Below are positions 5,906 through 32,065 of a DNA stretch of 32,174 nucleotides, piece after piece; within the stretch, counting starts at the first letter, position 1, and each line of letters begins with the position of its first letter. Under the pieces are notes generated by a model that was given only the letters and a program-made list of their open reading frames with translations, ran no database searches and was not told the origin of the DNA. The translations under genes and the position numbers were made by a program. Origin of the DNA: Phycisphaerae bacterium (GTDB taxonomy: Bacteria > Planctomycetota > Phycisphaerae > UBA1845 > PWPN01); assembly GCA_018003015.1 (NCBI GenBank), contig JAGNEZ010000066.1, positions 1 to 32,174 on the forward strand, given 5' to 3'.

Positions 5906-8287
5906 ATGCGTGGCAGGGCACACCTGATCGGCGTAGTGGCGGCTTTCTCAACTCTCTCCGTGGTCCTGGCCGACACGGGCGGATTCGATCTTGCCCGGAT
6001 GGCTTGGGCCGACAAGCACATTGAGGCGGCGATTGGGCGAGGTGAGCTGCCCGGGGCGGTGCTCCTGGTTGGCCGGGGCAGTCAAGTCGTGTACCGCAAG
6101 GCCTACGGCCACAAGGCGGTCAAGCCGGAGAAGGTGGTCATGACGCCGGACACCGTTTTCGACATGGCCTCGGTGTCCAAGCCGGTGGGCTGCGCGACCT
6201 CGATCATGCTGTTGATCGAACGCGGACAGCTCAACTTGAGTGATCGGGTCAGCAGGTACTTCCCCGACTTCGCCGCCAACGGCAAGCGAGACGTAACCGT
6301 GGAGCAATTGCTCCTGCATCGCGGTGGGCTTGTCCCCGACAACTCGCTGAACGATTACAGGGGTACTCCGGCCGAGTCGCTGGCCAAGATCTTCGCTCTG
6401 AAGACGATCTACGATCCGGGTTCCGGTTTCGATTACACCGACGTCGGCTACATCATGCTCGGTGAGTTGGTCAAGGTGGTCGACGGCCGGTCGCTGGATC
6501 AGTTTGCCAGGCAGGAGCTGTTTGAGCCCCTGGGCATGAAGGACACCGGCTACATGCCGTCGAATGAACTCAAGCCGCGATGTGCTCCGACGGAGCAGCG
6601 TGACGGCCACTGGATGATCGGCGAAGTGCACGACCCGCGGGCCTATGCCCTCGGCGGATTCGCCGGCCACGCGGGCTTGTTCAGTACCGCCGATGACATG
6701 GCCAGGTATTGCCGCATGATGCTCAGCGGCGGGACCCTCGATGGCAAGCGAATCCTCTCCGAGCTGGCCGTCCGGGAGATGACCCGCGGGAGGTGCTTGC
6801 CTGATGGCACCGGCTGCCGCGGCTACGGATTCGATGTCAGCACCGGCTTCTCCTCCGCGCGAGGCAATCTGTTCGAGGCGGGTTCGACCTATGGGCACAC
6901 CGGGTTCACCGGCACGATGTTCTGGATCGACCCCAACCATGACTGCTATGTCGTACTGCTGACCAATGCGGTTCATCCGGATGGTAAGGGAACCGTTATT
7001 GATCTCCGCCGGCGGGTGGCGACGGTCGTGGCCAGCGCGTTGATCGAAAGCCCGGCGGAGGGCTATCTGCCGGCGATGGTTCGTCCGCCGGTGGTGGCGG
7101 GCGCCGCATCCAACCCGACGGGCGAAACGCGCAACGCGGTGGGCAAGCCGGCCGAGGTACTCTGCGGGATCGACGTGCTCAAGCGCGACCGCTTCAAGTT
7201 GCTTGAGGGGCGGAAGGTTGCACTGATCACCAACCATACCGGCCTCGACCGTGAGGGCAATCGAACGCTCGATCTGCTCATCGCCGCCCCGAACGTCAAG
7301 GTCGTCAAGCTGTTCTCACCGGAGCACGGCTTCTACGGCAAGCTCGACGAGAAGGTCGGCGACGCGGTAGACGAGAAGACCGGTCTCAAGGTGTACAGCC
7401 TGTACGGCAAGACCAACCGGCCGACGCCGGAGATGCTCGAGGGTGTGGACACAATCGTCTACGACATTCAGGACGTTGGGGCACGTTTCTACACCTACGT
7501 GGCCACCATGGGGTACGCGATGGAGGAGGCCGCCAAGGGCAGGCTCAAGATGATCGTGCTCGACCGGCCGAATCCGATCACCGGCATCCGGGTCGACGGC
7601 CCGATTTACGACAAGCCCAACCGGGCATTCACCGCCTTCGGTCCTCTGCCCGTGGTTCACGGCATGACCGTGGGGGAACTCGCTCAGATGTTCAACGCCG
7701 AATACAAGATTGACTGCGACCTCACCGTGGTGCAGGTGGAGGGCTGGAAACGCACGATGTGGTGGGATGAGACTGGCCTCATGTGGGTCAATCCGTCACC
7801 CAACATGCGCAACCTGACCCAGGCCACGCTGTACCCGGCCATCTGCCTGCTGGAGGCCTGTAACCTCTCGGTTGGCCGGGGGACCGATCAGCCTTTCGAG
7901 TGCTTCGGTGCTCCCTGGATCGACGGCAGGAAGCTGGTCGCCGCTCTGAACGGGGCCAAGCTTCCGGGTGTGCGTTTCGTGCCCATCCAATTCACTCCCG
8001 TCCCGGGCACCAAGCTCGCGGGCAAAGAGTGTCAGGGCATCTACGTCTTGCTGACCGATCGGAACTTGTTTGAGCCGGTTCGCTCGGGCCTGACCATCGG
8101 CTGGCACCTGTCGCGTCTATTTGGCAGTCAGTTCGAGGTGGACAAGATGAACAACCTGGTGGGCAATGCCCAGGTGACCGAGGCAATCAAGGCCGTGGCC
8201 CGTCCGGACGAACTGCCCAAGTGCTGGCGTGAGCCGCTCGACGCGTTCAAGAAGGTGCGAAGCCAGTACCTGATCTACGCCCGCTGA
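5906..8287 (+). CDS. Secreted fusion: beta-lactamase-fold serine hydrolase (AmiE-like) plus NamZ/DUF1343 exo-N-acetylmuramidase
   Basis: 793 residues. The ATG follows GGGAG by six bases and opens with a short signal peptide (about residues 1-22). Residues about 30-375 form a class C beta-lactamase-fold hydrolase: S89-V-S-K92 is the SxxK motif, Y177-T-D the YxN-type motif, and GHTGFTG near residue 330 takes the place of KTG. From about residue 419 to the end is a DUF1343 (NamZ) domain with conserved blocks FSPEHGFYG, YDIQDVGARFYTY and DRPNPITG. In Bacillus subtilis the separate neighbours AmiE (YbbE, removes peptide from MurNAc) and NamZ (YbbC, removes terminal MurNAc) act in peptidoglycan recycling; the fusion suggests both steps occur in one periplasmic enzyme. 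The exact specificity of the hydrolase half is inferred from this pairing. It appears to be a single-gene transcription unit, with a convergent Hsp20 gene downstream. Confidence 0.9.
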   Translation: MRGRAHLIGVVAAFSTLSVVLADTGGFDLARMAWADKHIEAAIGRGELPGAVLLVGRGSQVVYRKAYGHKAVKPEKVVMTPDTVFDMASVSKPVGCATSIMLLIERGQLNLSDRVSRYFPDFAANGKRDVTVEQLLLHRGGLVPDNSLNDYRGTPAESLAKIFALKTIYDPGSGFDYTDVGYIMLGELVKVVDGRSLDQFARQELFEPLGMKDTGYMPSNELKPRCAPTEQRDGHWMIGEVHDPRAYALGGFAGHAGLFSTADDMARYCRMMLSGGTLDGKRILSELAVREMTRGRCLPDGTGCRGYGFDVSTGFSSARGNLFEAGSTYGHTGFTGTMFWIDPNHDCYVVLLTNAVHPDGKGTVIDLRRRVATVVASALIESPAEGYLPAMVRPPVVAGAASNPTGETRNAVGKPAEVLCGIDVLKRDRFKLLEGRKVALITNHTGLDREGNRTLDLLIAAPNVKVVKLFSPEHGFYGKLDEKVGDAVDEKTGLKVYSLYGKTNRPTPEMLEGVDTIVYDIQDVGARFYTYVATMGYAMEEAAKGRLKMIVLDRPNPITGIRVDGPIYDKPNRAFTAFGPLPVVHGMTVGELAQMFNAEYKIDCDLTVVQVEGWKRTMWWDETGLMWVNPSPNMRNLTQATLYPAICLLEACNLSVGRGTDQPFECFGAPWIDGRKLVAALNGAKLPGVRFVPIQFTPVPGTKLAGKECQGIYVLLTDRNLFEPVRSGLTIGWHLSRLFGSQFEVDKMNNLVGNAQVTEAIKAVARPDELPKCWREPLDAFKKVRSQYLIYAR

Positions 8288-8563: not shown

Positions 8564-9067
8564 TCAGGTTTGCCCTTCGGTGTGCTTGATGGAGATGCGC
8601 CTGGCGCTGGCTCCCGCTGTCTTGCACAACCGGATCGTCAGGATGCCGTTGCGGTGCTCCGCGTCGACCTTGTCCGGGTCGATTTCAGTGGGCAGTTTGA
8701 CGATGCGATGGAAGGAGCCGAACTTACGTTCGACTTGGTAGTATCCTTTTCTTTTCTCCTCGAACTCGTCCTTCTTCTCGCCCGAAATCCTGAGGCTGTC
8801 GGCCGTGACCTGGATTTCGAGGTCCTTGGGGTCGATGCCGGGGAGCTCAGCTCGGACGGTGATATCCTGCTCGGTTTCCGACACATCCACGGCCGGCCCC
8901 CAGCCGGTGATCGGCGAGAGGAGCCGGTCGAAGCCGCTCTTGCCTTCCTGAAGGAAATTGTCGAAGAGCCGGTCCAGTTCGTGGCGGAACCGTTCAATCG
9001 CGGATTGTGCCGCGGGGTCACGGTTCTCGGTGTCCACCCGCTTCGTGCGCCAGGGTATGAGACTCAT
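8564..9067 (-). CDS. hsp20: Small heat shock protein Hsp20 (third of three tandem copies)
   Basis: 167 residues. An alpha-crystallin domain (about residues 58-150) has 'VDVSETEQDITVRAELPGID' at its start and the C-terminal 'NGILTIRL' strand of the family. Hsp20 proteins are ATP-independent holdases that bind unfolding proteins. The N-terminal arm contains 'ERFRHELDRLFDNF', a common bacterial Hsp20 helix. I chose the ATG at 9067 (MSLIPW) because AGGATGG lies about nine bases upstream; the in-frame ATG at 9079 would overlap its own binding site. It is separated from the middle copy by about 105 bases, so it may have some independent expression. Among the three copies it is the most canonical class A type. 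Confidence 0.92.
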   Translation of the reverse strand: MSLIPWRTKRVDTENRDPAAQSAIERFRHELDRLFDNFLQEGKSGFDRLLSPITGWGPAVDVSETEQDITVRAELPGIDPKDLEIQVTADSLRISGEKKDEFEEKRKGYYQVERKFGSFHRIVKLPTEIDPDKVDAEHRNGILTIRLCKTAGASARRISIKHTEGQT

Positions 9068-9172
9068 GCGTCGAACCATCCTTTCATCCGCAGGCCCGCG
9101 CCTCGCGTGTTCCTGCTGTGCCGCCAGTATCCTCCTCTGGCTGAACGCTGATTATTACCCGCCGAGCACGGC

Positions 9173-9574
9173 CTACAGCATCTTGATTGCGATCTTGCGA
9201 GGCTTCACTGCCTCTACCTTGGGCAGGTGTAGCGTGAGCACGCCATCGGCGTACTCGGCCGTAATCCGAGATGCGTCGATTGCCTCGCTGACTTGGAAGC
9301 TGCGATAGAAATCGCCGACGCCATATTCGCGTAGCAAGTAACGGGTTTCCGGTGTTTGACGCACGGGAACCCGGCCGTGGATCTCCAGTGAGCCGTTCTC
9401 GAACTTCACGTCGATACTGTTGCTGTTCACCCCGGGCATATCGGCCACGACCAGCAACTCCTCCTTGTTCTCGATGATATCCACGTTCGGTCGGTAAGCG
9501 CGTCCGCTACGGGTTCGCTCGGCCTGGGCGACTTCGGCTTCAGTGGTTTTCTTGGCAACGGCACTGTCCACCAT
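9173..9574 (-). CDS. hsp20: Small heat shock protein Hsp20 (second of three tandem copies)
   Basis: 133 residues with a short charged N-terminal arm (residues 1-25) followed directly by the alpha-crystallin domain: 'PNVDIIENKEELLVVADMPG' near residue 29 and 'YADGVLTLHLPK' near residue 108. The start at 9574 has a perfect AAAGGAGG ribosome binding site. The C-terminus ends in a basic KPRKIAIKML; this IxI-type tail is the usual Hsp20 oligomerisation motif. It lies only 34 bases downstream of the first copy, so the two are almost certainly cotranscribed. The short arm suggests smaller oligomers or a co-assembly partner for the other two copies (inference). Confidence 0.92.
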   Translation of the reverse strand: MVDSAVAKKTTEAEVAQAERTRSGRAYRPNVDIIENKEELLVVADMPGVNSNSIDVKFENGSLEIHGRVPVRQTPETRYLLREYGVGDFYRSFQVSEAIDASRITAEYADGVLTLHLPKVEAVKPRKIAIKML

Positions 9575-9608
9575 GGCAATACCTCCTTTCGGTCTACAGC
9601 AGGTACAC

Positions 9609-10058
9609 TCACAGGCACTTGACTTGGATCTTCCGCAGCCTGGCGGCCTCGGCCTTGGGCAGCTTCAGGGTCAACACGCCGGACGCAAGCATGGCCTCGA
9701 CCCGCCCGGAGTCCACATCAACGGGCAGGCGGATCACTCGGCTGAACGGACCCGTGCCTCGCTCGCGACGGTGATAGACCTCGTCGGTGCTATCCCCTTC
9801 CTTACGCTGGCCCTTGACGGTCAGTTCGCGGCCGGAGACCAGAATCTCGATGTCCTCCATCTTCAGACCGGGCATCTCCGCTTCGGCGTACAGACTGCCT
9901 TCGTCCTCCCAGACGTTCAGGGCCGGGAATGCCGAGCTCCCGAACAGGCCGGATCCGACCAGCGGTGCAAGACCCTCCACCCAGTCGCCCAGCAGGCGAT
10001 CCACCTCGCCGCGGAGTTGCTGGATCGGGTTGCCGCCTTCACCCAGTTTTGCGAACAT
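9609..10058 (-). CDS. hsp20: Small heat shock protein Hsp20 (first of three tandem copies)
   Basis: 149 residues with a start at ATG 10058, eight bases after AGGAGG. An in-frame GTG at 10064 is too close to that site. An N-terminal amphipathic helix (about residues 8-30, 'IQQLRGEVDRLLGDWVEG') precedes the alpha-crystallin domain (from 'PALNVWEDEGSLYAEAEMPG'), and the tail 'ASGVLTLKLPKAEAARLRKI' completes it. This is the promoter-proximal gene of the trio and has the leader hairpin described separately. The three proteins are divergent paralogues, not recent duplicates. Confidence 0.92.
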   Translation of the reverse strand: MFAKLGEGGNPIQQLRGEVDRLLGDWVEGLAPLVGSGLFGSSAFPALNVWEDEGSLYAEAEMPGLKMEDIEILVSGRELTVKGQRKEGDSTDEVYHRRERGTGPFSRVIRLPVDVDSGRVEAMLASGVLTLKLPKAEAARLRKIQVKCL

Positions 10059-10066
10059 GTTCACTG

Positions 10067-10141: not shown

Positions 10142-10170
10142 ATTGTATCCCGTAAATCATTGTCGTTCAA
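10142..10170 (-). promoter_or_regulatory. Promoter of the Hsp20 operon
   Basis: On the minus strand TTGAAC (10165-10170), a 17-base spacer and TACAAT (10142-10147) form a near-consensus housekeeping promoter upstream of the first Hsp20 gene, predicting a leader of about 75 bases. The preceding C gives CTTGAA, the -35 core seen in sigma-32-type heat shock promoters, so dual recognition is possible. No CIRCE element (TTAGCACTC-N9-GAGTGCTAA) is present. Confidence 0.6.
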
Positions 10171-10301
10171 GATTTTACGGTGCCATCCGGTCTCGGCGAT
10201 CATGCCAGATGCCAGATTGGCACGGCAGGATCCGATTTCTGGGGATGACCGCTGGGCCGCTGGCCGATAGTCTTCTCAACGAACTGCGATGCCGAGGGCC
10301 C

Positions 10302-11045
10302 ATGAGCGACCAATTCACAACGCCCCGTACGCCGACGCCGGGCCATGACGCCGGCTGGCTGGCCGAGACCTTGGATACCCGTCCAGAGATTGTCTGGATG
10401 GCCCCATTCATGATGTACCTCATTCTGTTGGGGCTCAATGACAAGGTTCCCGAAGAGTGGATGGCCGTGCCTATCGCCATTCGTGGCCTCGGTGGTCTGG
10501 TCGCGTTCTGGATTGTTCGCCGCAGGTTGCCCTCGCTGGGGAGGCCGCATGTTTTCCTGGCGATCGTCCTCGGCATTCTGGCGGCCGCCGGCTGGGTGCT
10601 CGGCCAGTACGGGTGCAACGCGGTCGGCTTGGGCGGCAGCTGGTTCGGTCTCCGCCCGGGCCCGGACGTTCATGATCCGCGCGTGGACCTGACCACCGCG
10701 GCCTGGGCGTCTCAAGCCGTCCTACGAATCACCGTGGCCACGATCACCGTTCCCGTGGTCGAGGAACTCTTTTGGCGCGGCTTCATGTTGCGTACGCTGG
10801 TCAACTGGCAGCGGTTCGAAACCGTCCCGCTCGGGACGTTCACCTGGCTGTCGTTCTTGGGCACGGCTTTGCTGTCCACCGTGCAGCATCCGGCGAATTG
10901 GGGAGTGAGCATCCTCTGCTGGATGGCTTTCAATGTGTTGTTTTACTGGAAGAAAAGCCTGCTGTTTCTGATGATCGTCCACGGCGTGACCAACCTGGCC
11001 CTCTATCTCTATGTTATCACTCGTCACGACTGGGTCTTCTGGTGA
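10302..11045 (+). CDS. CPBP-family (CAAX prenyl protease-related) membrane protease, PEP-CTERM-associated type
   Basis: 247 residues with about seven hydrophobic segments. The CPBP/Abi signatures are visible: motif 1 E154-E-L-F-W-R159, H196 in STVQHPANWG, and motif 3 H227-G-V-T-N231. The blocks VPLGTFTW and the WVFW terminus match the subtype of CAAX prenyl protease-related proteins found in genomes with PEP-CTERM/exosortase sorting. The ATG at 10302 follows GAGGG closely; the frame extends upstream to 10143 without family character. The 3' end overlaps the end of the convergent DNA glycosylase gene by 29 bases. A PEP-CTERM protein lies 3.2 kb downstream, but no exosortase is in the window. 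The substrate is unknown. Confidence 0.82.
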   Translation: MSDQFTTPRTPTPGHDAGWLAETLDTRPEIVWMAPFMMYLILLGLNDKVPEEWMAVPIAIRGLGGLVAFWIVRRRLPSLGRPHVFLAIVLGILAAAGWVLGQYGCNAVGLGGSWFGLRPGPDVHDPRVDLTTAAWASQAVLRITVATITVPVVEELFWRGFMLRTLVNWQRFETVPLGTFTWLSFLGTALLSTVQHPANWGVSILCWMAFNVLFYWKKSLLFLMIVHGVTNLALYLYVITRHDWVFW

Positions 11046-11703
11046 GATCCTCGTGCTCGAAAGGGTCCAGGGGGCAGCCTTCGCATCTCGGGCGAGGGCG
11101 GCAGTGCAGCTTGCCGACCTGGACCAGCAGGGCATGATACTCGTTGAAGTACGTGGCATCCTCGGGGAGGTTCGATTCGAACAGATCCTTGATCTCGTCG
11201 TAGTCGGCCGAGTCATCCGTGAGGCCGTGCCGGTACAGGATCCGGGCCGTGTAGGCGTCCACCACGAAGCTCGGCATCCCCCCCGCATAGAGCAGAATCG
11301 CATCGGCTGTTTCCCGGCCGATTCCCGACACGCTGAGGAGCTGCTCACGAAGTGCATCAAGCGAGGTGTTGAACATCCGCTTCAGATCACCTTGGTAACG
11401 ATCCCACAGCCACTCGACGAACGACTTGAGCCTGTGGGCCTTGACCTTGTACGTTCCTGCCGGGCGAACCAGCTCTGCCAGCTCTTCGACGGACATCTCG
11501 TGCAGCCGTTTCCAGTCCAGGGCCTTGGCCGCCGCGAGATTGGCGATAGCCCGCTCCACGTTTCGCCATGCGGTGTTCTGCGTGAGGATGGCTCCGATGA
11601 TGACCTCCGTGGAGCTCTTCGCCGGCCACCAGTGTTGTGGTCCGAAGGTCTCGAACATCGCATCGTAGAAGGCCTTGAGGGTCTGCGAGGTGCGGGTACT
11701 CAT
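11017..11703 (-). CDS. Endonuclease III-superfamily DNA glycosylase (MagIII-like)
   Basis: 228 residues with the HhH-GPD fold: helix-hairpin-helix 'SVSGIGRETADAILLYAGG' (residues 124-142) and catalytic Asp149 in FVVDAYTARIL. The Lys that forms the Schiff base in Nth (GRKTA) is Glu131 here, as expected for a monofunctional glycosylase such as the 3-methyladenine MagIII group. The C-terminal iron-sulfur motif is incomplete: C201, C207 and C210 are present but the fourth Cys of the Nth pattern is missing, so a [4Fe-4S] cluster is doubtful. The start at 11703 overlaps the stop of the sulfatase-like gene in an ATGA junction, indicating translational coupling. The enzyme removes damaged bases by family knowledge; its lesion specificity is inferred. 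Confidence 0.85.
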   Translation of the reverse strand: MSTRTSQTLKAFYDAMFETFGPQHWWPAKSSTEVIIGAILTQNTAWRNVERAIANLAAAKALDWKRLHEMSVEELAELVRPAGTYKVKAHRLKSFVEWLWDRYQGDLKRMFNTSLDALREQLLSVSGIGRETADAILLYAGGMPSFVVDAYTARILYRHGLTDDSADYDEIKDLFESNLPEDATYFNEYHALLVQVGKLHCRPRPRCEGCPLDPFEHEDLTRRPSRDE

Positions 11704-13115
11704 TTCCTGAACTCGGAGTCCTTGGTGGCTTCCTGCCATTTCCTGAGGCGGGTCGAGAGCACCTTCACAACCGAGGCGTACTCCATGTCGCCCACGGCGT
11801 TGTGCAGTTCGTCCCCGTCCCGCTTGAGATCGTAGAGCTGGCTCTCGCTCTGCATGTACTCGACGTATTTGAACAGGTCGGTGACGATGGCCCGGGCAAT
11901 ACAGGAAGGCTCGCCGGGTGACGAGGAGTAACTCACGAAGGCTTCGTCACGATGACTAGCTGCCCCCGGATTGCGCAGGACCGGCAGCAGCGATTGACCG
12001 TGCACGATTGGCGGGATTGTCACACCCGCCAGCTCCAGAAAGGTCGGAGCGAGATCGACGAGGCTGACGATCCGCTCGATCTTCGTCCCGGGCTTCGTCA
12101 GGCTCGGATATCGCACCAGCAGTGGCCCGCGGATGAGCTCCTCATAGAACGCCGGGCCCGTCGAGAACAGCTGATGGTCGCCCAAGGCCCATCCACTGTT
12201 TGATGCATACACGACGGCGGTGTTCTCGCGGAGATTCAGGTCATTCATCCGTTTAAGCACGCGGCCGATCTGGGTGTCGGTGTACGTCATCATCGTGTAG
12301 TACTTCGATCGGGCGTTGCGAACCTGGGTTTCATCCATGTGCTGGCCTTTTCTGACCAGGTTCGTGTTGAGCAGTACAGGGGGGCGACGATCGGGGATGG
12401 TCTTGACAGACTTGGGCAGCTCGATGGTGTCCGGGGGGTAGGCATTTTCCACTCCGGGCGGAAGGGTCGGCAACTCGGGTAGCTCGACGAAGTTCACCCA
12501 GAGAAAGAAGGGCTTCTCGTGCGTTCTTGCCAGGTACTCGATCGCCCGGTCGGCGATCCACTCGGTGAGATGCTGGTCGGCTTTGGCCTCCTTGCCTTGG
12601 AACCACACCTGGCGGTCGAGCCACGACGAGGGGGCACAGATCGCCGTGTAGTCGGTGAACCCGTGATCCGGCGTGAACGCCTTCTCCCCGAGCGGCTCCC
12701 ATTGGCCCACGATCGCGCAGACGTAGCCGGCACTGTGTAGGGCCCCGCTGAGAGTCTCCGCCCGCGCTGGCAGGCCGGGTTCATGAGCTGCGGTCTTGAG
12801 GGCATGCGGATACTGGCCGGTCAGGATTGAGGCCCGGCCAGGAGTGCTCTGCAGCGTCGGCGTGTAACATCGCGGGAAGAACGTGCTCTCCTTGGCCAAC
12901 TCGTCCAGGTTGGGCGTCTTGATCTGCCGGTGACCTTCGAAACCGGTCAGCCCCGGTGTCTGGTGATTGGTGGTGAGAAGAACGATGTTCGGTCGATTCG
13001 CCCCATCAGCCGGCCCCGCCGCGAACAGGGCCATGGCAAACGCGAATGCCGCCCGCCGCGACAGGCCATAGGGCGCCGGCCGCCGGGACACCAGGAACTC
13101 AACCGGGCAATTCAT
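11700..13115 (-). CDS. Sulfatase-fold secreted protein with degenerate active site (probable pseudoenzyme)
   Basis: 471 residues. The ATG at 13115 has AGGGG five bases upstream and is followed by an Arg-Arg signal peptide (SRRAAFAFAMALFAA, residues 19-33, possibly Tat). The alkaline-phosphatase/sulfatase fold is clear from RPNIVLL (41-47), TPNLDELAKE (67-76), RASILTGQYPH (94-104), the YYTMMTYTDTQIGRVL region and LVDLAPTFLELAGV. Key residues have changed, however: the first metal-binding Asp pair is T49-N50; GKWHLG is G-Q138-W-E140; the aPHtP His is absent; SDHG is S305-N306-S307-G308; and the Lys after the LGDH block is T319. A Ser-type formylglycine motif, S90-T-P-G-R94, remains. Metal binding and hydrolysis therefore look lost, suggesting a binding or scaffold role. 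It overlaps the glycosylase start by 4 bp. Confidence 0.85.
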   Translation of the reverse strand: MNCPVEFLVSRRPAPYGLSRRAAFAFAMALFAAGPADGANRPNIVLLTTNHQTPGLTGFEGHRQIKTPNLDELAKESTFFPRCYTPTLQSTPGRASILTGQYPHALKTAAHEPGLPARAETLSGALHSAGYVCAIVGQWEPLGEKAFTPDHGFTDYTAICAPSSWLDRQVWFQGKEAKADQHLTEWIADRAIEYLARTHEKPFFLWVNFVELPELPTLPPGVENAYPPDTIELPKSVKTIPDRRPPVLLNTNLVRKGQHMDETQVRNARSKYYTMMTYTDTQIGRVLKRMNDLNLRENTAVVYASNSGWALGDHQLFSTGPAFYEELIRGPLLVRYPSLTKPGTKIERIVSLVDLAPTFLELAGVTIPPIVHGQSLLPVLRNPGAASHRDEAFVSYSSSPGEPSCIARAIVTDLFKYVEYMQSESQLYDLKRDGDELHNAVGDMEYASVVKVLSTRLRKWQEATKDSEFRK

Positions 13116-14997: not shown

Positions 14998-15552
14998 TCA
15001 GATGTACTCGCGGAACAACTCCTTGCTGGGGCCGGGGATGACCACCGAGGCCACGAGCAGGCCCTTTTCGCGGACCAGCTGAGCCCCGGCATCGACGCCG
15101 GCGCGACAATCGGCCACCGTTCCCGCCATGAGGGCAAAACCCTTGCCGCCCAAGGCCATGGCCAGATGGATGCGGTAGAGCGTGATGGCCGCGGCTTTGG
15201 CGGCGGCGTCGGCCGCTTCGAGAATGCTGGCCGCCGAGAAGGACTCGATGATGCCGACGGCGCCGGGTCGATCGTCATCGAGTTGCACCGATTGCCCGAG
15301 GGCACGGAACACTGACTCGTGGATGTTGGGGATAGTGATGTGGTCAATGACCCCGTCTGGCGCGGCGGCCAGACCGGCGGCCATGCTGGCTCGGACCGCC
15401 GCGATGTTGCCGGTGACCACGTTGATGAACTTGCCCGAGCAGATCGTTCGGCCGAGAACGAGCTCGACATCCGCCGCCTTGAGCATCGCATCCTGGACGG
15501 CCAGCCCAATGGCGACGCTGCTCAGTTCGATCATGCCAATAGCTTCGCGCAT
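14998..15552 (-). CDS. pduT: BMC-T tandem-domain microcompartment shell protein, PduT-like
   Basis: 184 residues with two BMC domains: residues 4-90 (begins AIGMIELSSVAIGL) and about 97-182 (begins AVGIIESFSAASIL). BMC-T proteins form trimers in the shell of bacterial microcompartments. The first-domain pore loop is RTICSGKF with Cys38, the position that in PduT supplies a ligand to a [4Fe-4S] cluster at the three-fold axis, so this shell protein probably carries electrons across the shell. It starts 16 bases after the stop of the PduS-like gene, and the two form an operon. No other shell genes (BMC-H, BMC-P) or enzymes are present within the window, which is unusual for a BMC locus. Confidence 0.9.
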   Translation of the reverse strand: MREAIGMIELSSVAIGLAVQDAMLKAADVELVLGRTICSGKFINVVTGNIAAVRASMAAGLAAAPDGVIDHITIPNIHESVFRALGQSVQLDDDRPGAVGIIESFSAASILEAADAAAKAAAITLYRIHLAMALGGKGFALMAGTVADCRAGVDAGAQLVREKGLLVASVVIPGPSKELFREYI

Positions 15553-15568
15553 AGTCCTCAAATCCTCG

Positions 15569-16873
15569 TCATGCTTCGATCGTCATGGCATCCTTGGCCA
15601 GGTTGACGGTTCCGGTGATGCTGGCGTGGATCACCGCACCCAGCTGCCCCTCGGACGGGCGGGCTACGACGTCTCCGGCCTTGACCCGGTCACCGCTTCG
15701 GACCACCGGCAGGGCAGGGGCGCCCACGTGCTGCTTGAGTGGCAGCTGGACACGTCGCGGCTGGTACGCGCGCTTGAGCATCGGGCCCTGGTTGACAAAA
15801 TCGGTGAGCCCCAGTTTGGTGAGCAGTCGCCGCAAGGGCACACGGCGGTTGTCGAGATGCAGTTTCGGGCGGGCCTCGACCGCGTCGACCTCCCACTTGC
15901 GGCCTTCGGACATCAGCCGACGCTTGTTCTGGCCGCACACATTCTTCGGATCGAGATCCTCCGGGCAGGAGATCATCGTACACAGGTTGCACTCGCAGCA
16001 GAACAGCGTGCCCAGGGTGCTGGCCTCACCGGTCTGGCTGTAGACCAGGGACCGCATGGCCTTGTGTGGCTCGATTGGGTGGCCCAGCAGGTAACGCGGG
16101 CAGAGTTCGGTGCAGAAAGAGCACTGGTCGCAAGCGCTGGCCCCAACCCGCGAAATCGTGGGCCAATCCTTGCGGTAGCGGGCGATGAGCATGTGATCGT
16201 CGGGCAGCACGATCAGGCCGCCGGTCGTCTTGGTGATCGGTTCGTCGAGACTGGTGCACAGCCGGCCCATCATCACCCCGCCCACGAGGGCCGCCGGCCT
16301 GTCCACCGTGGCTCCGCCCGCAAGCTCGATCGCCTCGCGGAAGCTGGTGCCGACCGGGACGCCGATCGTGACTGGATCCCTGACCGCACCGGCCACGGTC
16401 AGGAACTTGTGGGTGACCGGGACGCCTTGGGCGATGTTGCAGGCCGTCTCGACGTTGGTGACGACCGCCCCGACGGCCAGTGGAATCCTACCCGGCGGAA
16501 TGACCCGGCCGGTCACGTCGTAAACCAGGACGAACTCATCCCCGGTGGGATAGCTGTCGGCCAACTCCGCGATCCGCACCGTCGTCGGGAGCTTCGGGGT
16601 GAGCAACTCGATGACGTCGTGGTACTTGTACTTGATGCCGATGACGGCCTCTTTGGCCCCCACCAGCTGCCGGGCCCGCTCCAGTCCCGCGATGACCTGG
16701 TCGGGGAACTCGCGGAGCATCTCCTTGTCCTTGTGCAGCAGCGGTTCGCATTCGGCTGCATTCAGGATGATGATTTCCGCCGCCGCCCGGAGCTTCACAT
16801 GCGTCGGGAATCCGGCCCCGCCGGCCCCGACCACCCCACACGACTGAATGGTGTCAATGGTTATCTCTGCCAT
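15569..16873 (-). CDS. pduS: PduS/RnfC-like flavo-iron-sulfur electron transfer protein (cobalamin-reductase type)
   Basis: 434 residues, close to PduS length. An RnfC-type N-terminus has the Gly-rich GVVGAGGAGFPTHVKL (residues 13-28), which binds flavin/NADH in the family. The central SLBB-type region spans about residues 160-240. Two ferredoxin-like cluster motifs are present: CDQCSFCTELCP (about residue 245) and CCECNLCTMISCP (about residue 293). A lipoyl/RnfC-C-like barrel ends the protein ('VKAGDVVARPSEGQLG'). PduS reduces cobalamin for the diol dehydratase system and interacts with the PduT shell protein, whose gene follows directly. Since the window also has a PduO adenosyltransferase, a B12 reactivation role is possible; general NADH recycling in a microcompartment is the alternative. 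Confidence 0.9.
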   Translation of the reverse strand: MAEITIDTIQSCGVVGAGGAGFPTHVKLRAAAEIIILNAAECEPLLHKDKEMLREFPDQVIAGLERARQLVGAKEAVIGIKYKYHDVIELLTPKLPTTVRIAELADSYPTGDEFVLVYDVTGRVIPPGRIPLAVGAVVTNVETACNIAQGVPVTHKFLTVAGAVRDPVTIGVPVGTSFREAIELAGGATVDRPAALVGGVMMGRLCTSLDEPITKTTGGLIVLPDDHMLIARYRKDWPTISRVGASACDQCSFCTELCPRYLLGHPIEPHKAMRSLVYSQTGEASTLGTLFCCECNLCTMISCPEDLDPKNVCGQNKRRLMSEGRKWEVDAVEARPKLHLDNRRVPLRRLLTKLGLTDFVNQGPMLKRAYQPRRVQLPLKQHVGAPALPVVRSGDRVKAGDVVARPSEGQLGAVIHASITGTVNLAKDAMTIEA

Positions 16874-26653: not shown

Positions 26654-29600
26654 CTACGGGCACGGCGGCGGAGGAAGCTTCTGGCCGATGTTGTTGCGCA
26701 CCGCAGTCATGTCCAGGGTGTTGATGCGCCCGTCCATGTTGATGTCGCAACGGTGGTGGACCAGAGGCACCTCCCCGGTGTTGTTCCGAACCGGGGTCAT
26801 GTCCAGCGTGTTGCACCTGCCATCACCGTTGACGTCACCCACGAACGCGACCATACAGATCGAGCTGGTCGTGACGTTGCCGGACAGGTCGGTGATGCCC
26901 GGGAACCGAATCGAGACCCGGCTGACGTCGGCCACGCCGCTCATGTCGATGGTCAGAACCGCGCCGGCGATGGAGACGGAGTTGATGGTGACGGCGCTGC
27001 CGGCGCTGTCGACCACACTGACGTCGGCGGGTAGAGGCGTTCCGCCTGGCCCACTGCCCATGATGGACTCGTCGAAGGTCACCAGGACCAGCGTTGGGCC
27101 GTTCCTGCGGCACTCGACGGCCGCGTCAAAGACGCCCAGGGGACTCAGCAGGTCAATGTCGAACGTGCCCATCGTCCCGTGGGTCTTCCGCGACACGGCG
27201 GCGGTCATCACTGGCGGAACGCGGTCGCGAACCCTGAGGACCACGTTTCGCTTGCCACCCTGGTCGAAGACCTTGATGACCACGTTATCGACGTCGGTAT
27301 CGGCCGAGTTGCCGCCCGCCGCGGAGGTGAACCCGACGTACTTGACGTCCGGGATATTCGCCGCCGGGACGGTGTAGTCCCGGATGGCGTGGATCGGACA
27401 CAGCCCGGGGGGCGTTACCACGACGTTAAGCACGCCGTTCTTGAACCGGACCACCGCGTGCCAGACGCCGGTGTCCTCGAAATCGGGCGAGATCGCCGTC
27501 GTGGTCTTGCTGACCACGCTCCCGCCGACGTCCACGCCCACATGGTTGGAGTCGGGGTCGAAGTTGTTCATGTACCCGTCGAACTCGACCGCGAAGGACT
27601 GGGTGGGGAAGTCGCGGTAACCGATCCCGACACCTTCGGGATAGAACGGTCCGGACGGTGCTCCGCTGACCACCATGGTCAAGCCGTCAGGGTCAATGTT
27701 GCCTGCGGCATCCGCGTAATGACCGGAGACGTTGGCGAGCTTGAAGTCAAAGGAGACCTCGAAGTCGTTGGAGGTGCCGGGCTCGGCTACGGGCGACGGG
27801 CTGTAGAAAGCGGTGCCCGCCTTGGAGATGAACCCGGAGGAAATCAACCGCACCACGCCCTCCGGCAACTGATGATTCGCGAACGGGAAGATCTGCCAGT
27901 CCGCCGGCAGGGCGCCGAAGCCTTCGTTGGTCGCGAGGGTATAGACGTTGCCGTTGGTCGTATTGGCAAAAGTGACCGTGTCGTTGTAGAGGCCGGCCGG
28001 CAACGCATTGGCCAGGGCATTGATGGACACGGTGACGTTGGTTGAAGCTCCCGGAGTCAGAGAGCCGGCCACCGGCGGGGAGAGGGTTACCCACGGCTGG
28101 AGGTTGGCCGCCGACCAGTTGATGGTCTGTCCGCCGGCGTTGGTGAGCGTGTAGCTCTTGCTGCCGGGGACGAACGGCCCGCCCGGATTGCCCGCGCTGT
28201 ACAGATCGTCCGCCGGGTAGACCTCCAGCACGCCGGCAGGAGTCGCCGAGATCTGGACCGTGTAGTCCTCTACCTCACCGTCGCGTGCATGGCCGATGTA
28301 AGAGAGGCCTGCGACCGTACTGAAGCGGAACCGGGCGAAGGTGGTGCCGCCGGCGGCCGTGATTGGAACCGGGAAGACCAGGGAGTTGACGCCCGCCACC
28401 AGAGGCACGTCGGCGAAGATCTGATCCCCGGTATCGGCCCACGAGCCATTGCCGCCGAAGTCGAGCCAGGCACTGAGCAGTCCAGGCGCCGAGGCCGTGA
28501 CGTCCACACAGCCCAGATGACCGGGCGTCAGCGGGGTGTTTCGGAAGACCACGCCGTCCTCGTCGGCCAGGGCGGCCAGATCATCTCCCGTCGCGGTCGG
28601 GTTCGGCTGCCCGTCGCCTTCCGCGTCGATCAACGCACCCAGCATAAGGCCCGGAACCACCGTGTGGCGGGCTCCGTTGTTGCCCAGCAGGGTGGGGTAG
28701 GTGGGGTCAGGCGCGTCGCCGAAGTCATCGGTGGGTTCGACCACTTCGAAAATGCCGGTGAGGGCGAAGGCCAGATCCATGGATTCTCGAGCCATGGGAT
28801 GGTTGCCGCCGTAACGCAGCTCCTTCCAGCCCGGCACCGGTTGGGTGAGATCCATGTAGCAGGCGTCGTCGTTCCAGTGTTCCAGCGAGCTCTTCCAACC
28901 CAAGAGGAAGAGGGCGTCGTCAGCCTTGTACTTCACGCCGAGCCAGTAAATGGTCCCTTCTCGCTGGCGGAAGGCTTCGTCCTTGTTGATGTAGAAGTCG
29001 TACTGGTAGATCTGCGTGTCGCCCGGGAACTGCCATTCCCCGGTCACAGGGTCGTGCCACCATTCAGCTCGTTCGTGGAGACACAGTCCGGCCTTGTACT
29101 CGCCGGGAGCGAAGTGCTTCTTCCACAGCGCGATGCCCGGATGGCTGTACGGCACCAGCGGTGGGGCCGCGGGCACATCCGCGTAGAGGGTCAAGGTGAA
29201 GCCCAGGCTGGCCGGGCCTTCGGGCGGCAGAATGTCGTGGAGGAACGAGGTCCAGATGTGGATGTCGGTGATCGGCCCGCTCATCGTGCACTTGAAGTCG
29301 TCGGCCAGCTCGACCCTCGCGTTGTTCACGTCCACGCCTGTGGTGTGGACGTCGGGCCGCTGCAGCCACTTCACCGGGGCGATCGTGACGAGGTAGTCCT
29401 CCACCTCGCCATTGGGGGCCGGGCCGGTGAAGGACAGTCCCTGCACCAGGCTCAGCCGGAACCGGGTGAACGTCTGGCCCACCGCGGTAATCGCTCCCGG
29501 AACGAACGTCAGGTTGTTGATGCCGTTCGCGACGGGCACGTCGGCGAAGATCTGCTCCCCGGCGTTGGCCCAGGAGCCATTGCCGTCGAAATCAACCCAG

Positions 29601-32065
29601 GCGCTGAGATAGGCCACCGCGGTGGTAAAATTCGTGACCGTCACGGTTACCGTGTTCGGCACCCCGCTGAACATGGCCGTGTGGAAGGTCACACCGTCCT
29701 CGTCGGCCAGATTGGTGATGTCGTCCCCTGTCGCCGTCGGGTTTGGCAGGCCATTGCCCTCGACATCGATGAGCTTGCCGAGCATGAGGGCTTGCGAGGC
29801 GACGTGGCGAGCTCCGTTGGCCGCCAGCAGTGTGGGATACGGGGCTGGAGCGTCGCCGAAGTCGAAGACATCGGGGCCGGCCATGCCGGTCACGGCAAAC
29901 GCCAGGTCAATCGAGTCGGGAGCCATCGGATGGCCGTCGCCATAGCGCAGCTCTCTCCACATGATCGCCGGGCCGGAATTGTCCAGCCAGCAGGCATCGT
30001 CGTTCCAGTGCCGCCGCGAGGTCTTCCATCCCAGGGCGCAGTCGGTACCGATCTCGGACATGTACTTCACGCCCAGCCAGTAGATCGTGCCTTCGAACTG
30101 ATGGAAGGCCTGGTTCTCGTTGATGTAGAAATCGTATTGGTAGATCTGGGTGTCTCCTGGGAAATGCCAGGAATTGGTGGCGGGATCAAACCACCACTCG
30201 CCGGGGACGACGGTGCAGAGTCCCGCTTGGTACTGACCAGGTTCGAAGGTCGCTTCCCAGAGGAGTTCGCCCGGATGGCTGTAAAGGGTGCCGTTCGGGC
30301 CGGCGGGCACGTCCGCGTACAGGTACAGCTTGAAGACCAGGCTGTTCAGGCCGTTGGGCGGCAGCAAGTCGCCGTTGAAGGATGTCCAGATGTGGAAGTC
30401 GGTGATCGGTCCGGTCTGCGTGCACCGGAAGTCGTCAGCCAGCTGCACCCAGAAGTTGTCCACATCCACTCCGGTTATCTCCACGTCCGGGGGTTGGATC
30501 CACTTCACCGGGGCGATCTTGATGAGGTAGTCTTCCACCTCGCCGTTCGGGGCCGGCCCGGTGAATGGCAGCCCCATCACGGTACTCAGCCGGAAGCGGG
30601 CAAAGGTTCGCCCCGTCGCGGTAATGGCCCCCGGCGTGAACGTCAGGATGTTGACGCCGTTCACGACCGGCACGTCGGTGAAGATCTGCTCACCGGCGTC
30701 GGCCCACGAGCCGTTGCCGTCGAAATCGACCCAGGCGTTCAGGTAGGCCACGGCGCTGAACATGTTCGTGACCGTCACGTTGACCGTGTTCGGGACCCCG
30801 GTAAACATGGCGGTCGGGAAGGCCACACCGTCCTCATCCGGGAGATTGTTGAGGTCGTCCCCGGTAGCCGTGCCATTCGGTTGGCCATCGGCCTCGGGAT
30901 CGATCAGATTGCCGAGCATGAGGCCAGGCGTGATCAGGTGATTGGCGCCCATGTTGGCGGCCAGCGTCGGATAAGTCGGATCCGGAGCATCACCCCAGTC
31001 AAGCTCCTCTACGCAAGGCAGGTCGCCCTCGATGGCGAAGGCCAGGTCAATCGGCTCCGGGTACCAGATGTGCCCGTCGGGGTAGGTCAGGGGCCGCCAC
31101 GGGCCAGTGTACGGCTCCGACCCGACACCCACAACCGCGGCGTCATTCCAGTGGTGGTAAGAGGTCTTCCAGCCGAAGTACGCCGGGGTGACCCCGGGCA
31201 TCGTCTGGGCTTGCACGTCCAGCCAGTACACCACTGGCTGCTCAGGGTGACCTTCCTGGCAGAACGCCTCGCTGGCGGGAATCCAGAAATCGTATTGCCA
31301 GCAGACCTTGTCGCCCGGGAAGACCAAACCTTGATCGGCGGTTGGATCCCACCAGTATTCCTCAAGATCCCCCAGGTAGACGCCGACGGTAAACGTGCCC
31401 GGCTGGAAAGTCCTGGTCCACAGGACCTTGCCGGGTCGGCTGAACAGGGCACCCGGAACGGCCGGAATATCAGCGTGCAGGCTCAGCGTGAAAGTCACGT
31501 TGCCCGCGTCCGGTGGTATGCCCGGAAGAATGTCTTGCAGCCACGAGCCCCACACGGTGATGTGCGTAATCAGCGAGCGGCGATCACACTTGAAATCGTC
31601 CGCCAGAATCACCGGGAAGGTCGCCTTCACGTCGATGCCAGTCTTGTTGATGTCCGGCGGCTGAATGAACTTCAGCGGCCCGCCTTCGCACACCTCGTCG
31701 AGCCCGTCGCCGTCTTTGTCACCCAAGCAGACCGTCCCCGGACCCTTGGGCTCTCCGCCCGACGCCCGGCAGTTCTGAGGCAATTCCATGTAACATCGCC
31801 CGTCCGGGGGGCAGCAGGCTTCCGCCAGGGTTGTGATCTCGCAGGCGTCGTCGATCTGGTTGCCGTTGAGATCCCCAAGACACACGCCGCCGGGCGCCAG
31901 GAACCCTCCCGTCGGGACACAGGTGCCTACCGGAACCAGCGCACAAACACCGCCCGGCAGACAACAGGCCTCCAAAAGATCCTGGCCTCTGATCTGGCCA
32001 GGACATAACCACAGCAATGCGCTCAACATTGCTGCCGTTACCAACACGCTTTTCGCAGAACTCAT
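26654..32065 (-). CDS. Giant multimodular secreted protein: GEVEDY modules, BACON-like, L-type lectin-like and dockerin-type repeat
   Basis: 1803 residues. The ATG at 32065 has AGGAGG six bases upstream, then a signal peptide (about 1-27). Modules in order: two Cys-rich repeats (about 30-128; 'EACC..G.C', 'VCLGDLNGNQIDDACE', 'VCLGDKDGDGLDEVCE'); then three copies of a pair made of a beta-rich domain ('PDVEITGVDV', 'LADDF.C', 'YQYDFYIN', 'YWLGVKY', 'GWK.S..HWNDDA') and a GEVEDY-type domain ('GDAP.PTYPTL' to 'NGEVEDY'), about 130-1265; a BACON-like segment (about 1290-1345, 'INWSAANLQPWVTLSPP'); an L-type lectin-like domain (about 1375-1600, 'FAVEFDGYMNNFD'); an Ig-like stretch; and a dockerin-type pair, GDVNGDGRCNTLDM and CDINMDGRINTLDM (about 1742-1790). 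No PEP-CTERM tail is present. It is probably an extracellular glycan-binding or adhesion protein; the role is inferred. Confidence 0.93.
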   Translation of the reverse strand: MSSAKSVLVTAAMLSALLWLCPGQIRGQDLLEACCLPGGVCALVPVGTCVPTGGFLAPGGVCLGDLNGNQIDDACEITTLAEACCPPDGRCYMELPQNCRASGGEPKGPGTVCLGDKDGDGLDEVCEGGPLKFIQPPDINKTGIDVKATFPVILADDFKCDRRSLITHITVWGSWLQDILPGIPPDAGNVTFTLSLHADIPAVPGALFSRPGKVLWTRTFQPGTFTVGVYLGDLEEYWWDPTADQGLVFPGDKVCWQYDFWIPASEAFCQEGHPEQPVVYWLDVQAQTMPGVTPAYFGWKTSYHHWNDAAVVGVGSEPYTGPWRPLTYPDGHIWYPEPIDLAFAIEGDLPCVEELDWGDAPDPTYPTLAANMGANHLITPGLMLGNLIDPEADGQPNGTATGDDLNNLPDEDGVAFPTAMFTGVPNTVNVTVTNMFSAVAYLNAWVDFDGNGSWADAGEQIFTDVPVVNGVNILTFTPGAITATGRTFARFRLSTVMGLPFTGPAPNGEVEDYLIKIAPVKWIQPPDVEITGVDVDNFWVQLADDFRCTQTGPITDFHIWTSFNGDLLPPNGLNSLVFKLYLYADVPAGPNGTLYSHPGELLWEATFEPGQYQAGLCTVVPGEWWFDPATNSWHFPGDTQIYQYDFYINENQAFHQFEGTIYWLGVKYMSEIGTDCALGWKTSRRHWNDDACWLDNSGPAIMWRELRYGDGHPMAPDSIDLAFAVTGMAGPDVFDFGDAPAPYPTLLAANGARHVASQALMLGKLIDVEGNGLPNPTATGDDITNLADEDGVTFHTAMFSGVPNTVTVTVTNFTTAVAYLSAWVDFDGNGSWANAGEQIFADVPVANGINNLTFVPGAITAVGQTFTRFRLSLVQGLSFTGPAPNGEVEDYLVTIAPVKWLQRPDVHTTGVDVNNARVELADDFKCTMSGPITDIHIWTSFLHDILPPEGPASLGFTLTLYADVPAAPPLVPYSHPGIALWKKHFAPGEYKAGLCLHERAEWWHDPVTGEWQFPGDTQIYQYDFYINKDEAFRQREGTIYWLGVKYKADDALFLLGWKSSLEHWNDDACYMDLTQPVPGWKELRYGGNHPMARESMDLAFALTGIFEVVEPTDDFGDAPDPTYPTLLGNNGARHTVVPGLMLGALIDAEGDGQPNPTATGDDLAALADEDGVVFRNTPLTPGHLGCVDVTASAPGLLSAWLDFGGNGSWADTGDQIFADVPLVAGVNSLVFPVPITAAGGTTFARFRFSTVAGLSYIGHARDGEVEDYTVQISATPAGVLEVYPADDLYSAGNPGGPFVPGSKSYTLTNAGGQTINWSAANLQPWVTLSPPVAGSLTPGASTNVTVSINALANALPAGLYNDTVTFANTTNGNVYTLATNEGFGALPADWQIFPFANHQLPEGVVRLISSGFISKAGTAFYSPSPVAEPGTSNDFEVSFDFKLANVSGHYADAAGNIDPDGLTMVVSGAPSGPFYPEGVGIGYRDFPTQSFAVEFDGYMNNFDPDSNHVGVDVGGSVVSKTTTAISPDFEDTGVWHAVVRFKNGVLNVVVTPPGLCPIHAIRDYTVPAANIPDVKYVGFTSAAGGNSADTDVDNVVIKVFDQGGKRNVVLRVRDRVPPVMTAAVSRKTHGTMGTFDIDLLSPLGVFDAAVECRRNGPTLVLVTFDESIMGSGPGGTPLPADVSVVDSAGSAVTINSVSIAGAVLTIDMSGVADVSRVSIRFPGITDLSGNVTTSSICMVAFVGDVNGDGRCNTLDMTPVRNNTGEVPLVHHRCDINMDGRINTLDMTAVRNNIGQKLPPPPCP
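28262..31672 (-). repeat. Threefold tandem duplication of a two-domain module within the giant protein
   Basis: Three copies of about 375 codons (about residues 132-510, 511-890 and 891-1265). Each has a beta-rich domain with a conserved '[FW][IL]Q.PD....GVDV' start and a GEVEDY domain with 'TATGDD..[NA]L.DEDGV' and 'WVDFDGNGSWA.AGEQIF'. Copies 2 and 3 are closest; the third GEVEDY domain is the most divergent ('WLDFGGNGSWADTGDQIF'). This indicates internal duplication followed by drift. Confidence 0.85.

Follow-up and report, generated by a model that had tools for sequence, protein, structure and literature searches.

The window analysed here, a complete contig of 32,174 bases from a 6.9-Mb genome (G000, 99% complete), harbors a gene for a protein related to the S1 (FGly) sulfatases in which the residues that bind calcium and sulfate have been replaced. 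Together with nine orthologues it forms a clade that genuinely descends from an enzyme and is non-catalytic, rather than representing a copy in decay, as a recognizable enzyme fold is combined with loss of the catalytic residues across orthologues and with purifying selection, the features of a pseudoenzyme. The protein is probably an exported pseudoenzyme that performs a non-hydrolytic job through a working surface away from the old pocket. S1 sulfatases form a very large family of medical and ecological importance, and counts of "sulfatases" in Planctomycetota genomes would include non-enzymes such as these; the clade offers a natural system for asking to what use an enzyme fold is put after catalysis.

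Active-site residues and fold of the window copy

The pseudo-sulfatase gene is a single stop-free reading frame (Table 1), and a Pfam profile search of its product matched Sulfatase (8.5e-41, residues 42-365) and SGSH_C (4.4e-29). An AlphaFold2 model, based on a 25-sequence alignment, reached a pLDDT of 86.9 and a pTM of 0.87, and S1 sulfatases head its structural matches, namely 6hr5 (Z 47.0), 5g2v/BT4656 (Z 45.8; rmsd 1.9 Å over 423 residues) and 7p24/BT3177 (Z 44.6), hence the S1-sulfatase fold is predicted to be complete, including the C-terminal subdomain, and the intact fold noted in the first-pass annotation is borne out. The N-terminus carries a signal-like segment, read from the sequence as RRAAFAFAMALFAAG, and signal-like N-termini are also present in every orthologue in which this part is available; the pseudo-sulfatase is predicted from these N-termini to be exported.

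Table 1. Coordinates of the pseudo-sulfatase gene, its altered active-site positions and the partner gene in the window.
Feature	Position	Strand	Remark
Pseudo-sulfatase gene	11700..13115	-	471 aa; predicted full S1-sulfatase fold without a working active site
Putative N-terminal export signal: RR, then hydrophobic AAFAFAMALFAAG, then PADGANR	12999..13115	-	sequence only
N50-H51, replacing the calcium-binding Asp pair (AtsA Asp13-Asp14)	12963..12968	-	alignment with sister sulfatases
S90-T-P-G-R94, remnant of the C/S-x-P-x-R formylglycine motif	12834..12848	-	unconserved in the clade
Q138-W-E140, replacing K-W-H	12696..12704	-	
L212-P213, replacing the Pro-His motif (AtsA His211)	12477..12482	-	
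N306-S307, replacing the second calcium pair (AtsA Asp317-Asn318)	12195..12200	-	
T319, replacing the distal active-site Lys (AtsA Lys375)	12159..12161	-	
Partner gene: HhH-GPD DNA glycosylase, MagIII/monofunctional type	11017..11703	-	228 aa; probably monofunctional
ATGA overlap of pseudo-sulfatase stop and glycosylase start	11700..11703	-	

All four calcium ligands are substituted in the window copy (N50, H51, N306 and S307), and the Lys, His, His and Lys of the sulfate site read Q138, E140, P213 and T319, so that both lysines and both active-site histidines are missing and the canonical set is absent. Across the aligned sulfatases of SulfAtlas, Asp13 is conserved in 96%, Asp317 in 99%, His211 in 99% and Lys375 in 96%, while the ligands Asp14 (76%) and Asn318 (61%) are more variable (PMC5066984), and the sulfate site of the S1 family has been described as invariant (PMC10154612). 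Given these residues and the established S1 chemistry, the window protein should neither bind calcium nor turn over sulfate esters in the S1 manner (PMC5066984; PMC10154612). Within the same genome, 26 other sulfatase-like ORFs were inspected, one of which (L117) is an EptA/LtaS-like membrane protein; the remaining S1-type paralogues (25/25) have retained the Cys nucleophile, along with the Arg and the first Lys, the columns for 213 and 319 being misplaced in this alignment and hence left out. Set against both comparisons, the changes in the window copy are more than a chance observation.

The near-total loss of the catalytic centre described in the first-pass annotation is therefore confirmed by the residues, including GQWE at 137-140 (Q138, E140), SNSG at 305-308, T319 and the missing Pro-His motif, whose equivalent pair reads L212-P213. 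The lost Asp pair, however, is N50-H51 and not T49-N50. The latter register is obtained with phmmer against 5g2v, which opened a gap at the Asp pair, whereas the gap-free alignment with the sister sulfatases (KPNIIFILTDDQ over RPNIVLLTTNHQ) gives N50-H51, and this register is fixed by the orthologues, because L010 retains D50, while L012, L015 and L017 retain D51. Nor have all catalytic residues been lost, since S90 and R94 are still present.

The S-T-P-G-R stretch of the window copy still fits the C/S-x-P/A-x-R pattern, yet position 90 reads S, S, W, N, S, S, D, A and A across nine members (L016 is without that part of the protein). As W, N, D or A occupies this position in 5/9 members, formylglycine would not be needed by the clade, and, judged from the aligned sequences, it cannot be one of its conserved features or requirements. 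The other S1 sulfatases of the window genome are all Cys-type (25 examined), and the genome holds 17 matches to PF03781 (FGE and relatives), a family that is not specific for FGE.

Orthologues, phylogeny and conservation

Ten orthologues, including the window copy, were found in ten genomes from nine genera of one family of Planctomycetota; the nine others share 34-91% identity with the window copy, and one of their genomes (G009) belongs to the same genus as the window genome. Wherever named records exist for the genomes of these relatives, they are MAGs, labelled Planctomycetota or Phycisphaerae. The full catalytic set is present in 0/10 orthologues: out of ten canonical residues, L012 keeps five, which is the best case, L010 four, L015 three, the window copy, L009, L013 and L017 two each, and L011 none, while L014 keeps one, with one column missing, and L016 none of the six covered. 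All four calcium ligands occur together in no clade member, and positions 50/51/306/307 read N-H-N-S, D-S-D-G, N-G-N-T, S-D-D-G, S-E-S-H, N-D-N-G or A-D-E-S, depending on the member.

A tree built after removal of the catalytic columns recovers the ten orthologues as monophyletic (support 100/100), with six canonical sulfatases from other families of the order as nearest relatives (98/97). Close matches outside the family (L028-L033, L119 and L120) are all canonical, the latter two, from the phylum sample, included. No member outside the one family was found among 114 genomes of the order, the overlapping samples of the class (397) and the phylum (392), and a genome_contigs scan; likewise, no description of an S1 pseudo-sulfatase family was found in the literature searched, most subscription papers lying outside its coverage. 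The orthologues, for which the first-pass annotation had proposed to look, thus share the loss of the site and form a clade of single origin. Neither of the two situations that it had named as speaking against a selected loss was encountered, as no conserved replacement ligands were found elsewhere in the subfamily and no orthologue has the full canonical set beside a decayed window copy. The most parsimonious account is that function was lost once, after which the pocket drifted independently in each genus.

Three of the 13 genomes of the family (G006, G007 and G008) are devoid of the gene, so it is dispensable in some of them. In L014 (G012:C368, from a 55% complete MAG), a single in-frame TAG directly follows the residue aligned to G312 in an otherwise intact frame, which is either an error in the sequence or a nonsense mutation of recent date.

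The dN/dS of the window copy against its sister species is 0.196 (NG86 counting, one species pair) and is bracketed by the values of five active sulfatases in this genome pair (0.112, 0.175, 0.205, 0.235 and 0.262; some sulfatase ORFs include untranslated upstream codons), while eight neighbouring genes yielded 0.053-0.222. One-off decay of a single copy is ruled out by this value together with the ten orthologues. Of the columns with strong conservation in active sulfatases, the 57 outside the catalytic set show 79% identity in the clade, as against 16% for the eight catalytic columns (permutation P 5e-5). Over all columns, the clade shows 42% identity and over the ten site columns 17%, whereas the same measures in active sulfatases are 34% and 91%. 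Conservation is thus reversed in the clade, with the scaffold retained and the pocket released, and the earlier view of a well-kept frame under selection holds, given the dN/dS and the structural columns kept across the clade. At about 28 positions the clade, unlike its active relatives, shows complete or almost complete conservation; these positions include W165, W186, R269, S270, R348, E391, R432, Y446 and V452 and are candidates for a new working surface, although they may instead be packing residues.

Under the reading that we favor, the ancestor of the planctomycete family would have carried an active S1-type (FGly) sulfatase, whose sulfate-hydrolysing site would have been lost once in the family ancestor, and the fold would since have been maintained by purifying selection for a non-hydrolytic job, which we infer from the absent features. 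The protein may serve as an envelope binding or scaffold protein, and, because the pocket varies freely, its role would be expected elsewhere on the surface, with the clade-specific invariants as the putative working surface. The first-pass annotation had proposed a selected, non-hydrolytic role such as carbohydrate binding; the selected, non-hydrolytic protein stands, while carbohydrate binding at the old site is not supported, since conservation in the clade is lowest in the pocket columns (0.17 vs 0.42 identity overall), which makes a common ligand at this site unlikely. A lectin-like role, in which a (sulfated) glycan is still held in the old cleft of the active site but no longer cleaved, would fit with an exported protein and with an ancestor that was probably a carbohydrate sulfatase (the nearest solved structures are BT4656 and BT3177, S1_11), and, as S1 sugar-binding subsites vary freely anyway, binding could survive outside the sulfate site (PMC10154612). 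We nevertheless regard it as unlikely, as the sulfate-pocket residues vary more among orthologues than the rest of the protein and the conserved neighbourhood is made up of genes for DNA processing, not for polysaccharide degradation. It is very unlikely that the protein has remained an enzyme of changed chemistry that relies, within the same fold, on other ligands or a different nucleophile: catalytic promiscuity is a feature of the alkaline-phosphatase superfamily, and YejM, at first called non-enzymatic, was later reported to be a Mg-dependent phosphatase (PMC7576196), but no consistent polar substitute for the ligands at 50/51/306/307 occurs among the members.

The glycosylase partner and neighbouring genes

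The glycosylase gene lies directly downstream of the pseudo-sulfatase gene on the same strand in 9/10 genomes, with a spacing that ranges from a 4-nt overlap to ~50 nt in eight genomes and is ~390 nt in G010, while G005 carries an intact pseudo-sulfatase but no glycosylase match at E 1e-40 in the genome. The best profiles for the glycosylase are 3-methyladenine glycosylase (MagIII-type) and monofunctional glycosylase models, with scores below their cut-offs. It carries GIGRETAD where endonuclease III has its catalytic Lys, and for this reason is probably monofunctional; the fourth Cys of the iron-sulfur cysteine pattern is not evident. A gene for a CAAX-protease-related protein of the PEP-CTERM-associated type (TIGR03008, just over the cut-off; 10143-11045, + strand) is convergent with the glycosylase gene and overlaps its end.

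Within the stretches compared, the other window genes tested are common only to the same-genus genome, hence the gene pair is conserved well above the local background. G008 has the glycosylase without the pseudo-sulfatase, G006 and G007 have neither gene, and in four genomes (G003, G004, G011 and G012) dprA is located directly upstream of the pseudo-sulfatase. The glycosylase is widespread among other families of the order, and an older pairing was rejected, as no pseudo-sulfatase relative was present beside any of the glycosylase loci inspected outside the family (20/20). DNA binding, considered because of the DNA-repair neighbours, was likewise rejected, since the mature domains of full-length members have net charges anywhere between -11 and +13 and share no basic character.

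The linkage of the pair probably reflects shared regulation rather than contact between the products, because the pseudo-sulfatase is predicted to be exported, while the glycosylase should act on cytoplasmic DNA. That the two proteins, with DprA in four genomes, work together as a functional unit, with a dead envelope hydrolase tying an envelope signal or incoming DNA to DNA processing and repair, would be striking if true, but appears quite improbable. Least probable of all is slow neutral decay of a gene kept solely for its position upstream of, and overlap with, the glycosylase gene, since the ATGA or near-overlap junctions, the nonsense codon in L014 and the retention of the glycosylase alone in G008 would agree with it, but the dN/dS of 0.196, the many structural columns invariant over nine genera and the intact copy in G005 argue against it.

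Elsewhere in the window, a serine beta-lactamase/esterase domain is fused to a complete NamZ exo-muramidase (NamZ_N and NamZ_C; 5906-8287, + strand), and three Hsp20-like small heat-shock genes form a row (8564-10064, - strand). A bacterial-microcompartment shell protein with two BMC stretches adjoins an RnfC/PduS-like protein (14998-16873, - strand), and a secreted repeat protein of 1803 aa (26654-32065, - strand) contains three GEVEDY-type repeats and a C-terminal dockerin-like pair, GDVNGDGRCNTLDM and CDINMDGRINTLDM.

Comparison with known systems

The whole fold and the C-terminal subdomain are common to the pseudo-sulfatase and the S1 (FGly) sulfatases BT4656 and BT3177 (S1_11) and 6hr5 (S1_25) (Z 44.6-47.0), and the clade descends from within the S1 sulfatases (tree support 98/97). 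Unlike these enzymes, it has lost or no longer conserves the calcium ligands, the sulfate-site Lys and His and the FGly residue. The active sister sulfatases of the same phylum (L028-L033, L119 and L120) share ~29-35% identity with the pseudo-sulfatase as well as common subfamily features, as YVPxPQCxPSR and KGPxFYEE of the sisters correspond to YTPTLQSTPGR and TGPAFYEE, but they differ in having a complete canonical site and no adjoining glycosylase. The N-termini of L028-L031 are lipoprotein-like (e.g., AYGAGCEKE), unlike those of most pseudo-sulfatases, and L028 and L031-L033 lie in two tandem pairs (G043 C1:1663517-1666316 and C1:2182258-2184956).

In YejM (PbgA/LapC), an envelope hydrolase fold has been said to act as a scaffold for recognition (PMC13125744), but whether it is catalytic is disputed (PMC7576196). 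YejM comprises a membrane domain and a Thr centre of the LtaS/EptA type, whereas the window protein would be a soluble descendant of S1 sulfatases, with a single hydrophobic segment, at the N-terminus; the nucleophile position is taken in the clade by Ser, Trp, Asn, Asp or Ala, and the NCBIfam YejM model scores 19 bits on the window protein, against a cut-off of 825. YejM may hence be considered a parallel to the pseudo-sulfatase by analogy, not by membership.
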